A DNA stretch of 55,724 bases. Origin: Okeania sp. KiyG1. Its GTDB lineage: Bacteria > Cyanobacteriota > Cyanobacteriia > Cyanobacteriales > Microcoleaceae. Positions 2,597 to 53,379 of the stretch are shown piece after piece (positions within the stretch are counted from its first letter, which is position 1; every line of letters starts with the position of its first letter). Under the pieces are notes generated by a model that did no database searches, was not told where the DNA came from, and saw nothing but the letters and a program-made list of their open reading frames with translations. Location of the stretch: the NCBI RefSeq assembly GCF_014132355.1, contig NZ_BLZO01000084.1:1-55724 (forward strand). Reading direction: 5' to 3'. The position numbers and the translations under genes are program-made.

Positions 2597-2990
2597 GAGA
2601 GAAAAATGAAAGCATTGGTATTAGAAAAACCAGGAATTCCTGATAGTTTACTTATGGCAGAAATGCCCTTACCACAGCCAGAAGTAGATGAAATTAGGGT
2701 AAAAGTCCATGGGGTCGGGTTAAACCCTGTTGACTATAAAGTGGCTGCTTCTGGGTCTTCGAGGTGGAGCATTAACTTAATCAGAGAATAACGATATAAT
2801 AGCTTTAAAAGCATACTATTTAGACTGGCTGCACTCACGCATACATGAAATCCATGATTAACAAAGCTCAAACTTAATAATAAACAGAAAACTCTGATGG
2901 CTCAACACGCGGGCTACTCTCGATGGTGCTATAACTGGGGTAAAAGGTCTGTGGAATGCTGCATACATTGATGGTTACAAACCCAATGCT

Positions 2991-3011
2991 TCCTGCGGAA
3001 TGCTGCGCAAA
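2991..3011 (+). repeat. 21-bp dispersed repeat in tnpB
   Basis: It reads TCCTGCGGAATGC followed by TGCGCAAA. It inserts seven residues (SCGMLRK) between GYKPNA and RKLREVF of TnpB without changing frame. Confidence 0.75.
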
Positions 3012-3101
3012 CGTAAGCTTAGAGAAGTATTTACTAATCACACAAAACCACTTTATCCTTGGATGAAAAACTTGTCATCTAAAGTTTATCAATATGCTTT
3101 T

Positions 3102-3122
3102 CCTTCGGAATGCTGCGCAAAC
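3102..3122 (+). repeat. 21-bp dispersed repeat in tnpB
   Basis: It begins CCTTCGGAATGC and ends TGCGCAAAC. It adds seven codons (PSECCAN) between YQYAF and INLGEAFKRFF, and the frame is preserved. Confidence 0.8.
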
Positions 3123-3210
3123 ATTAACTTGGGTGAAGCATTTAAGAGGTTCTTCCAAGGGTCCTTGTAAACGCCCAAAATTTAAGAAGAAGGGTAAATC
3201 TGATTCTTTT

Positions 3211-3231
3211 CCTTCGGAATGCTTCGCAAAC
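3211..3231 (+). repeat. 21-bp dispersed repeat in tnpB
   Basis: It begins CCTTCGGAATGC and ends TTCGCAAAC. It adds PSECFAN between KGKSDSF and TIDNCGKP, and the frame is preserved. Confidence 0.8.
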
Positions 3232-3474
3232 ACAATTGATAATTGTGGAAAGCCAATAGAGTTAAACGGATGGAGCCACAAGTTACCTTTTATTGGTATT
3301 GTCAAAACTTATGAACCTATTGAGGCAACAGTAAAAAAAATAACTATTAGCAGGCAAGCAGGAGATTGGTATATTAGCTGTGTGCGACTCGTTGGCTAGT
3401 AAAAATCGCCGTAATGCAGGTATAGCAAGCCTTTTAAGTCAAGACATGATGTAAAAACATCGACTTGAAAAACT

Positions 3475-3511
3475 CAGTAGATGGAAAAGTTTTTATTCAA
3501 CAGCGATCGCT
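3475..3511 (+). repeat. Left terminal inverted repeat (37 bp)
   Basis: An exact reverse complement of 4909-4945. The outer end is CAGTAGATGG and the inner end is GCGATCGCT. Confidence 0.93.
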
Positions 3512-3735
3512 CAAAATTTAGTATTTTTTAATACAAAAATTTCAGGGAGTGACGGCTAATGAATTAGTAAAACTTATCATCGGATTCAGCAAAATATTGT
3601 TGTTATCAACCTGATGGAAGATAAATTGCATCAACAACATGGTAAAATTTATCAATAGACTGTTTAAGAAAAGCTAACATCTGTTTAAAAGTAAAGATTT
3701 CTTGATAAATTAATCTGCCTCCACGTCTGGTTGAA

Positions 3736-4752
3736 CTAACTTTTTGCGCCTAGGAGATTGACCCAGATATTAACAAGAAGAAAGGAAATTCCTAGTAATA
3801 GTAATCTAATGATTGGCTTTTTATTAGTGGTTTTAATACGACAGATATTTTTAATTCTATAGCTGCTCTCAATCCCAAAACGTTTTCGGTAATCAGTCTG
3901 AATATAATTTAAGCTAACATCAGCTTTATAGACAACATAGACTAAATATTCAAGGCCATATTTATTTCTTTTTCCTTTCCTATATTTAACAATTATCCAG
4001 AGATCAAAGGTGACATAATCATCCAGACTTTTTTTCATGGTATAAGTCGTTTGATAACTTTTTCTCCCTTGAAGAAACTGATTAATTCCTCCTTGCTTAC
4101 CCCGTCTGATTGCTGGCATAATAAAAGGAATATTTAAAGCTTTTAAGCATCGAATCACAGAAATACTAAAAACCTCTGTCTAAATAAAGAGTTTTAATTT
4201 TAATTTTTAGCGGTTCAATAAAAGCTAATAAATAAGTGATAATTGCTACATTTGTGTCTTGACAACGAATACCTTTGATGGCTAAGGTAAGACGTTTTCC
4301 TTTTTTTAAAACATATAGACTAGCATAAGCATAAAAGGAACAAGTCCCCGCCATACGCTTGACTTCTATAGATATAAGGTTTTTCTTCTTCTGTAGGATT
4401 CCCACACTGAAGGAATCAAGTTTAAGTCGATAGCAAATTTCAGTTTACCTTTTTTGATTCCTGGTAATTTTCGACTTCTTAAAGCTGAGTTAATTTGAAC
4501 TTCTAACTCTTCAAAATTATCAATCTTGTCTAAATGATACCTAATATTTTTACCAGAAGGGGATTTCTTTAAGATTTTAGATGTGTTTTCAATACTATCA
4601 CAGTTACTGGCTGCTCTTACTAATATTTGGAAGAGGTCTGATGAACTAAAAGCCCCTTGTGTTGATAGGGGAATATATTCGGTTAAACAATTAATGGTTT
4701 CTTGCAAGGTTTCTGATTCACTTAAAAGAATCTGATTTTCAACTTTAGCCAA
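3736..4752 (-). pseudogene. ISH3-like DDE transposase, two frameshifts
   Basis: Three consecutive minus-strand frames make one transposase: 4752-4366, 4405-4166 and 4158-3736. Candidate catalytic residues are D in KFAIDLNLIPSV, D in TLYLDRGF and E in KRFGIESSYR. Expected family segments are visible, such as GTCSFYAYASLYV and IPFIMPAIRRGKQGG. The frame changes near 4400 and 4165 would inactivate it, although the perfect terminal repeats suggest recent mobility. Confidence 0.8.
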
Positions 4753-4908
4753 AATTTCAACTTTTATCAGAATTTACTATCTTATATTTTAGCTTTTCTA
4801 TTACTTTTTTGCTCTTCTGTTTTGGTTTGACTAATTAACATAAGTAAATCTTATTAATTTGCCTAGATTAGAACTTATGTATTGAGTAAAAGCTCCCTTT
4901 TTTGGTTT

Positions 4909-4945
4909 AGCGATCGCTGTTGAATAAAAACTTTTCCATCTACTG
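4909..4945 (-). repeat. Right terminal inverted repeat (37 bp)
   Basis: An exact reverse complement of 3475-3511, followed by the AAACT target duplication at 4946-4950. Confidence 0.93.
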
Positions 4946-5451
4946 AAACTCTTATGACCTTGTAGGTGAGATTCCTACTGCCTCGTTGTTGGGTTGACAG
5001 CATAAGCCACAAGGTAGAGACTGAACATCAATCCCTGAAGCTGGCTTAAATGGGGTTAAAGCTTTAACTACCAAATAAGTGAGACCCCTAGCAAAGGCTG
5101 ACAAGTGGACGAACAGGAAGGCAATCTAAACTCTCGTCAGATACAGCCATTCCAAAGGTAGCTATGGAATGTAGGACAAAAGTCAGGGGGTCAATGGATA
5201 ATCTTATTGCAGCTGAGATTATCAACAACCATACCGAATCCTCCGAGGGATTTTGCCTCACTAAATCAGTCGCAATAAAGGCATAAGGGAACGAGAAAAC
5301 CTCTTTAAGACACCTAAGAATACAGGTCGATTAACGAAGGTGCGCCATTCAAGGTCAATCTGCACAACGGTTGCAGGTCTTAAGGAGAGTAGGATTAGGT
5401 CCCAAGGTGGAATTTTAAGGATGTACCCATGACAAGGGACGTTTAGGAGAG

Positions 5452-5487
5452 GAGCCGATTTGGAGGTGAAAGTCTCACGTCCGGTTC
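5452..5487 (+). ncRNA. Group II intron domain V
   Basis: The lower stem pairs GAGCCG with CGGTTC around a GAAA-capped upper helix (GGTGAAAGTC). This is the signature of the catalytic domain V. Domain VI and the AAC 3' end follow within 56 nt. Confidence 0.88.
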
Positions 5488-6128
5488 TGAAGACGAGCAG
5501 ACCCTATAAAGGATTACCCGGAAATGGGTTTGCTTAGTTTAACAGCTTTGAATTTCATCCTCACACCATACCCAAAAAAACTGATGTTATCGGTGTAGAT
5601 TTAGGTGTAAAAACCTTAGCTACTTTAAGTGATGGCAAGGTGTTTCCTAGTATCAAACCATATAGAAAAGCTGAGAAAAAACTGACTAAGTTGCAACGTC
5701 AAGTTAGTAGAAAAGTCAAGTATTCAAATAATTGGTACAAAGCTGTAATCAAGTTAGCGATCGCAGCATAGACGAGTAGCTAATATCCGCAAAGATGCAC
5801 TTGATAAACTGACAACTTACGCAAGCTTTGAACCACGGCAGTGTTGTCATTGAAGTATGACAATGTGTCTGGAATGCTAGCCAACCATAGGCTAGCTAAA
5901 TCAGTTAGCAGATAGTGGTTTTATGAGTTTCACCAGACAGCTTAAATACAAGTGCCAATGGTACGGAAGTGAATTAGTAGTAGTAGATAGATTCTTTCCA
6001 TCATCAAAGACTTGTTCTAACTGTGGTCATGTTCAAGACATGCCCTTGCATCTGAGAACTTATGACTGCAAGAAGTGTGGGTTGTCAATCTTCGCCAAGA
6101 TTTAAACGCAAGTATAAATTTGAGAGAT

Positions 6129-6185
6129 GCGGTCGGTTTGCTCCGCAACGCTAACGCGTTTCGCTCTAGCGTTGCGAAGCAAACG
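6129..6185. repeat. Imperfect palindromic repeat in tnpB 3' end
   Basis: The arms are CGGTTTGCTCCGCAACGCTA and TAGCGTTGCGAAGCAAACG. It lies between LRDAVG and TVNACG of TnpB and keeps that frame open. Confidence 0.7.
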
Positions 6186-6219
6186 ACCGTGAATGCCTGT
6201 GGATGAGTAACCGCCGACG

Positions 6220-6247
6220 GTAGGGACGTTGCATGCAACGTCCCTAC
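6220..6247. repeat. Perfect 28-bp palindrome
   Basis: GTAGGGACGTTGCA joined to its exact reverse complement. Related copies are at 25290-25318, 37245-37272, 37388-37420 and 40513-40541, with varying centres. Confidence 0.85.
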
Positions 6248-6548
6248 AGCAGGAAGTAAACCTCAATTTGTAACGCTATGTAACGCTTTGTATCAGTTTT
6301 ATAGAGCAGTTATCCATTTATTTTGGGGTTAGATGTGGCGGGAGTTATCGTTTAAAAGGCCGTCATGTCCGGGGTAAAATAGTTGCTAAAGTTGCAGAAT
6401 AAAGTGTATTAGAGAAAAAAATACCTTTATAATATCATATCCTGATAATAGGGCGATGAAAAAAAATAAAGTTCCATATTTCAAGCCTCTGAATTCAGGC
6501 AAAGATACTGATAACTGATAACTGATAACTGAAATGACTCCTGACTCC

Positions 6549-52420: not shown

Positions 52421-53379
52421 TATTATCTGAAAAGAAATGCTGGTATTATCTGAAAAGAAATGTCAGAATAGAAATAGCGGAGATGCATGTTTCCGTTCAC
52501 TCCTCACACCACACTCCGCCCAAGCTCAAAAAGTTTGGGCGGTTTCTTATGGCCATTCCATGAGCGAGTGACCACTTGAGGCTTGATAGGACAAAATTTT
52601 TTTGGTAGTGACTAGGGTATCACAGATTCGGCATAAGCTACTCAGTTAATTGCTTCATTGTGTATATCACATTTATCGTGCAAATCAAGTAAGGTACACA
52701 CAAATTATAGTTACCGAAAAGCTGGGCCAAAAGCCTCGCCATTTCAGGGCGACTTTGTGTTAAGCTAGGACTGGTTGCAGTACCCGACTCCCTACTCCGT
52801 AGGCTAGATAAATTATCTAGAGGCCAAGAGTCCAAGAAGGTCAAAACTAAGAACCTGTGGTGGCGAAAGCACAGTCAAATTTTGCGTAAGTACTTTTGAA
52901 TGTAAAATGTTATATGATAATTTGTTAACCTTGATACCAGTTTATACTATACTCTTTTATAGATACATTGGTAGGATTAAAACCTACCATATTTTTCAGG
53001 ATTTTATCTTAAATTTTTCCCAAATATTTAAACTAAAATAAATTTAGTGTTTTATGGGAAAAGTTAACTTGCTACAATCAAAAAACACCAAATTAAAATA
53101 AAGGTGTTTTGAAACAGATGTAACTGGCAACTGATGAACTGTATAAAAAAAATTGAGTTGCACTAAGCCTAGTAAATAGGCACACCTTTGCGGTCAGGCA
53201 GACCGTGGCTTGGACTAGCAACCAAGTCTGGAAAGCTTTTGAAGCCAGTCTGGCTGATATACTTGGGAGAAATTCTCGGCTTTCGTTAGTACCAAGTTAA
53301 GTTTAGTCAAGAGGCAATCTGAAAGAAGCAAGAATTCTACGCCATACCATAAAGATTAATATTGAAGGATTAGTAAAGA
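52421..53379. other. Intergenic before trxA
   Basis: Includes a duplicated TGGTATTATCTGAAAAGAAATG (52441-52461, preceded by a partial copy), an IS605-like left end (52706-52756, GCCTCGCCATTTCAGGGCGACTTT), and a structured block at 53150-53330. The trxA promoter must lie near 53300. Confidence 0.5.
53150..53330 (+). ncRNA. Possible structured RNA upstream of trxA
   Basis: Successive short stems are visible: CCTAGTAAATAGG, GGTCAGGCAGACC, and TTGGACTAGCAACCAA. The block is GC-richer than its flanks and ends about 50 nt before the trxA start. It could be a 5' leader, or a fragment of a mobile-element RNA (GAAAGAAGCAAGAATTCTA near 53320-53338 recalls IS605 ends). No known riboswitch class was recognised. 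Confidence 0.3.

Follow-up and report, generated by a model that had tools for sequence, protein, structure and literature searches.

The window analysed here, the whole 55,724-nt stretch of contig NZ_BLZO01000084.1 of Okeania sp. KiyG1, holds a four-level nest, in which a zinc-type dehydrogenase gene is interrupted by a tnpB-only IS200/IS605-type element, the element by a group II intron and the intron by an ISH3-family insertion sequence (IS). Comparison with related sequences confirms that the nest is real and well resolved. A first-pass annotation had proposed this nesting from the letters alone, and the identities of all layers held when they were checked through empty sites, family ends, terminal inverted repeats with target-site duplication, and an ISH3 model; alignment of each layer with relatives lacking the insertion, which had been suggested at the time, yielded an empty site for the dehydrogenase, for tnpB and for the intron. 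The statement that each level resumes cleanly is right for tnpB and for the intron and fails for the dehydrogenase, where a 727-bp stretch is gone 37 bases past the element. The pairings in the nest are all of known kinds; known events are combined in it, and its layers are broken. We consider it highly probable that the nest arose stepwise, as mobile elements of three kinds inserted one after another, each using its own known mechanism. The harbouring assembly is a draft of 10.98 Mb in 198 contigs, and the window contains no ambiguous bases (N). The genome is rich in tnpB elements, group II introns and short repeats; a tnpB query against it gave 626 first-look candidates (the best 40 were scored), and the maturase domain GIIM has 33 matches.

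The 5′ part of the dehydrogenase gene occupies positions 2606..2769 of the plus strand, which also carries all parts of the nest given below apart from the IS and its target duplication. Orthologues are present in all five same-genus genomes searched (L047-L051) and continue across the join; when 2769 is joined to 6310, the alignment is gapless in 5/5, each providing an empty site. The gene does resume to the right of the element, as annotated, but at base 6310 in all five alignments, one earlier than the ca. 6311 first given. Nor does it resume whole. The short piece at 6310..6346 (YPFILGLDVAGV) is ungapped against 5/5 orthologues, and between the equivalents of 6346 and 6347, L047, L048 and L049 each have 727 bases and L051 has a net 727; L050 is itself broken there and uninformative on this point. 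The alignments show a 727-bp deletion that removed most of the remaining gene and left a 3′ tail at 6347..6402. An intact orthologue matches PF08240 (ADH_N), PF00107 (ADH_zinc_N) and PF13602 (ADH_zinc_N_2). A DNA search of the same genome with the 5′ part, in which the best 40 of 48 candidates were scored, gave no second match.

The dehydrogenase empty sites delimit the second level, at 2770..6309, with the left flank GGAG and the right end GCAG. A left flank RGAG is present in 11/11 copies displayed, the window included, and a right end CAG in 9/9 copies displayed as well as in the window. At the empty sites the target reads GGAG in four of five cases and GGAA in L047, and the element left no target duplication. 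Insertion 3′ of a fixed short target without duplication is characteristic of IS200/IS605 elements, and the TnpB gene assigns this one to the tnpB-only type. The gene is a pseudogene in two exons, 2845..3381 (delimited by alignment with copies L015, L016, L017 and L024) and, together with the right end of the element, 5544..6309. The latter was identified by tnpB copy alignments and by PF07282 (Cas12f1-like TNB), which scores 65.8 bits on 5923-6105 against a cut-off of 26.3; an intact family member, L134, matches PF01385, PF07282 and PF12323. No Y1 transposase (TnpA) is found inside 2770-6309. Elsewhere in the genome there are 24 Y1_Tnp matches, a whole-genome count not assigned to the family of this element.

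The third level is a group II intron without a protein gene (3382..5543; 686 nt without the IS), recognised from the tnpB empty site, the family ends and RF00029. Nine tnpB copies were aligned across the join of 3381 to 5544, which a tenth copy, L018, does not reach. The join is gapless in the close copies L016 and L017, in agreement with the annotation that tnpB is left at 3381 and resumed at 5544 in exact frame. It is also gapless in L019, L022 and L023, but these copies are more diverged; one-base gaps occur near the join in L021, L024 and L025, and a palindrome in L015.

Group II introns have the consensus ends GUGYG at the 5′ side and AY at the 3′ side, and the window intron (GTGCGAC...TTTAAC) conforms to both. 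Within the family, GTGCGAC opens 25 of 26 rows (25 places) and GTGTGAC the remaining one, while TTTAAC closes 16 of 16, a few of these rows repeating the same place. A start at 3380 (GTGTGCG) was rejected: it would leave a frame error, and both the family ends and the empty sites in tnpB give 3382. Rfam did not call the intron at gathering thresholds; in E-value mode, RF00029 reached 36.1 bits on domains V-VI (gathering 40) and RF04357 reached 38.7 (gathering 53). A domain V with the AGC triad lies near the 3′ end (5452..5487) and is 36/36 identical to those of L032 and L070. The window intron has no reverse transcriptase/maturase of its own and no room for one. This does not exclude group II membership, because ORF-less members are known, as in Thermosynechococcus elongatus (PMC2882425). 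The L032 intron contains an open 620-aa maturase frame with GIIM, and domain IV is 304 to 3116 nt longer than in the window in 40 of 47 sister chains (seven were not chainable), with the proviso that tandem introns may lead chaining to pair the wrong neighbours. We do not claim that the window copy alone has a short domain IV, since two copies in genome G011, L128 and L129, show similar short forms, their alignments continuing to position 572 and position 556 of the intron, respectively.

The exon-binding sites were located by testing all columns of the intron alignment for their pairing, copy by copy, with the exon of that copy; two places stood out. EBS1 (GCAGCT in the window, 5209..5214) pairs with its own exon at a mean of 5.12 of 6 positions versus a shuffled 2.57 in 24 copies, and 5.27 versus 2.65 in 33 copies; for EBS2 (AGATAC, 5139..5144), the corresponding means are 4.79 versus 2.41 and 4.88 versus 2.41. 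The 33-copy set is what remained of 44 rows after 11 short, truncated or duplicate ones were left out. The partners in the window form a tract of the tnpB exon at 3369..3381. EBS1 makes 6/6 pairs, one of them G-U, with IBS1 (3376-3381), in a register one base off the aligned column that favours 6/6, the window EBS1 loop being one base longer than in the sisters; EBS2 makes 5/6 pairs with IBS2 (3369-3374). A combined 11/12 is reached at 7 of 111,424 window positions (both strands), this site included. The covariation among copies and the 11/12 fit here show the EBS1/EBS2 pairing with the 5′ exon that typifies group II introns, and across the many sites of this family the EBS sequences of the introns are fitted to each site.

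The gene that received the intron had been described as a selfish nuclease gene, by implication a working one, and this was not borne out. The closest tnpB copy, L015 (95.0% identity over 1311 aligned bases), is intron-free and lies at another locus in another species of the genus. Judged against the open 386-aa frame of L024, L015 and the window have frame-breaking single-base insertions in common, part of which are also found in L017. Since the intron-free copy shares these indels, parsimony suggests that the arrival of the intron very probably came after the death of tnpB; gene conversion is, in principle, an alternative source of the common indels. It could be argued that the intron was functionally kept, being spliced to maintain a working tnpB until the IS inserted, and the exact frame across the join, the good EBS/IBS pairing and a domain V identical to that of the maturase-bearing L032 intron all accord with this. 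Yet the frameshifts shared with the intron-free L015 indicate that the gene was broken first, and splicing therefore had nothing to preserve, which makes functional retention very unlikely. Because L015 and the window carry the common indels at different loci, the comparison also shows that the tnpB-dead element has transposed at least once.

The fourth level is an ISH3-family IS of 1471 bp on the minus strand (3475..4945), delimited by its inverted-repeat ends, on which the relatives L083 and L084 agree. Thirty-nine of the first 40 bases are inverted-repeated. The AAACT duplication annotated at 4946-4950 was recovered there, with its partner copy at 3470-3474, and a same-family intron, L042, is continuous through the site, providing the empty form; terminal inverted repeats with a short (5 bp) target duplication are as expected for the ISH3 family. 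The transposase (3736..4752, minus strand) is frameshifted into three pieces, 3736-4158, 4166-4405 and 4366-4752, which match NF033541 colinearly at positions 162-297, 86-156 and 2-78, with 103.3, 51.6 and 33.2 bits. Each piece is below the whole-protein cut-off of 225 because the pieces are fragments, and the proposed ISH3-like identity of the innermost IS stands on this match. Pfam gave nothing usable on the pieces, the single match, Mago_nashi, being far under cut-off. By protein, its nearest relatives are found in further cyanobacteria and in a single Cytophagales MAG; among 45 protein-matched loci the top one, in a Crocosphaera MAG, has 82% identity. No IS copy was found by DNA among the candidates scored in 12 relatives, and none by protein in the same genome with one of the three pieces as the query. 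A single-sequence fold of the intron is too weak to assign the IS to a loop or a stem. With 1.5 kb inside domain I, the intron has very probably lost the ability to splice, and the end product would be inert, with the dehydrogenase lost and tnpB dead.

In a draft assembly of 198 contigs, where tnpB elements, introns and short repeats are all high-copy, the nest could be suspected of being an artefact of joined repeats. We regard this as extremely improbable: the joins match the empty sites to the base, the EBS sequences of the intron fit this very exon, the IS is flanked by a matching target duplication, and no other IS copy was found in the genome at the DNA level (best 28 of 132 candidates scored).

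In the history that we propose instead, successive insertion, a tnpB element inserted 3′ of GGAG in the dehydrogenase without target duplication, as the empty sites show; with its own tnpB already frameshifted, it would have been moved by a transposase from elsewhere. The group II intron inserted in sense orientation into the dead tnpB, at the site that matches EBS1 and EBS2; the most likely route is retrohoming or retrotransposition, for which a sister copy would have supplied the reverse transcriptase/maturase. The ISH3-family IS landed in the intron, 93 bases inside the 5′ boundary, and duplicated 5 bases. The 727-bp deletion in the dehydrogenase, which the orthologues reveal, would belong to the same history and is not placed in the order of insertions.

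Two points of the order can be read from the sequences, the intron following tnpB decay (by parsimony) and the IS following the intron. The first-pass order of oxidoreductase, IS605, intron and IS holds for the entry of the intron into tnpB and of the IS into the intron; that the element was in the dehydrogenase before the intron came is unproved, as nesting alone does not order these two arrivals. Nesting alone would permit a composite move, in which a copy of the element at another locus first received the intron (and perhaps the IS as well) and, so loaded, transposed into the dehydrogenase, and the at least one transposition of the tnpB-dead element deduced from L015 lends this some plausibility. 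Against it, a query across the tnpB/intron join gave 100 matches in 13 genomes and only the window's own spans the join, no more than the best 40 candidates being scored per genome, out of 45 to 81 seen in each same-genus genome. The lack of a second loaded copy among the scored candidates is no proof, but it makes the first-pass order likelier, and we consider a composite move rather unlikely.

Several of these features have counterparts in published reports. In T. elongatus, ORF-less introns are mobilised by the intron-encoded proteins of other introns, introns insert into IS elements and into each other with an EBS/IBS fit at their sites, and one intron, TeI4g, carries an IS, ISEL2f (PMC2882425). 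The window intron resembles these in its ORF-less form, its EBS/IBS fit, its location in an IS element and the IS that it carries. It differs from what is described there in that one and the same intron occupies a tnpB element and is itself hit by an IS, which lies in domain I here and in the ORF in T. elongatus (PMC2882425). The rarity first claimed for this "complete stratigraphy" is therefore relative, introns in IS elements and an IS in an intron having been described for Thermosynechococcus (PMC2882425). Trichodesmium, likewise a marine cyanobacterium, has many introns, several of them ORF-less, with nested introns, a twintron and demonstrated splicing (PMC4649490). There the host gene is conserved, whereas here the host is a dead transposon gene. 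IStrons, in which a group I intron is fused to an IS200/IS605-type element and the whole moves and splices out (PMC4227781), also combine an intron with this type of element; the window, in contrast, has a group II intron that interrupts tnpB internally, not a group I intron fused to an IS end. In Methanosarcina mazei, a group II intron is divided by a transposase, much as the window intron is split by another transposon, although, as far as the available part of the report goes, that intron is apparently not inside a further mobile element (PMC8919778). A limited literature survey, mostly of records without full texts, gave no description of a group II intron inside an IS200/IS605 tnpB. The nest is a well-resolved fresh example and not a new kind. 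It offers a worked example of mobile DNA stacking inside mobile DNA that was dead already, the boundaries of each level having been verified against empty sites.

An independent second case of an intron in tnpB was found at L060 (G005:C29; 642-1239 of L060), where tnpB is interrupted at a different point by another member of the intron family, in truncated form. Window aside, this is the one TnpB match in the exons at 43 intron 5′ ends, of which 39 are distinct; at 19 3′ ends (16 distinct) there was none. The indication of an intron preference for tnpB is weak, and we do not claim one. It is conceivable, though we give the idea little credence, that degenerate tnpB copies are landing pads for the group II introns of the genus and that loaded elements could travel by peel-and-paste; if so, they would be a group II counterpart of IStrons.

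Additional observations concern the repeats and neighbours of these elements. At L038, L039, L040 and L041, introns of this group II family succeed each other within a few kb. A repeat of ca. 21 nt (TTCCTTCGGAATGCTKCGCAAAC) occurs at several points of tnpB (window 2984-3013, 3094-3123 and 3203-3232); some sister copies are without it, and the gaps are exactly 21 nt, so that the frame is preserved. Its 18-nt core has 346 genome matches at no more than one mismatch (reversed control, 0). Close to the element's right end (6136-6184), the window copy has a hairpin with arms of 23 nt, which the four copies aligned with it lack. The 28-nt palindrome GTAGGGRCG-N10-CGYCCCTAC (window 6220-6247) is found at 130 places in the genome (reversed control, 0). 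In L134, it lies in frame within an otherwise open 387-aa TnpB frame (SCRGERPFAPTNEF); L015 carries it, with a sequence like that in L134, at the exact tnpB point occupied by the intron in the window. Elsewhere in the window, a remnant of another TnpB (577-1340) lies upstream of the neighbouring dehydrogenase gene, and a Yfr1 small RNA is located at 52477-52544.
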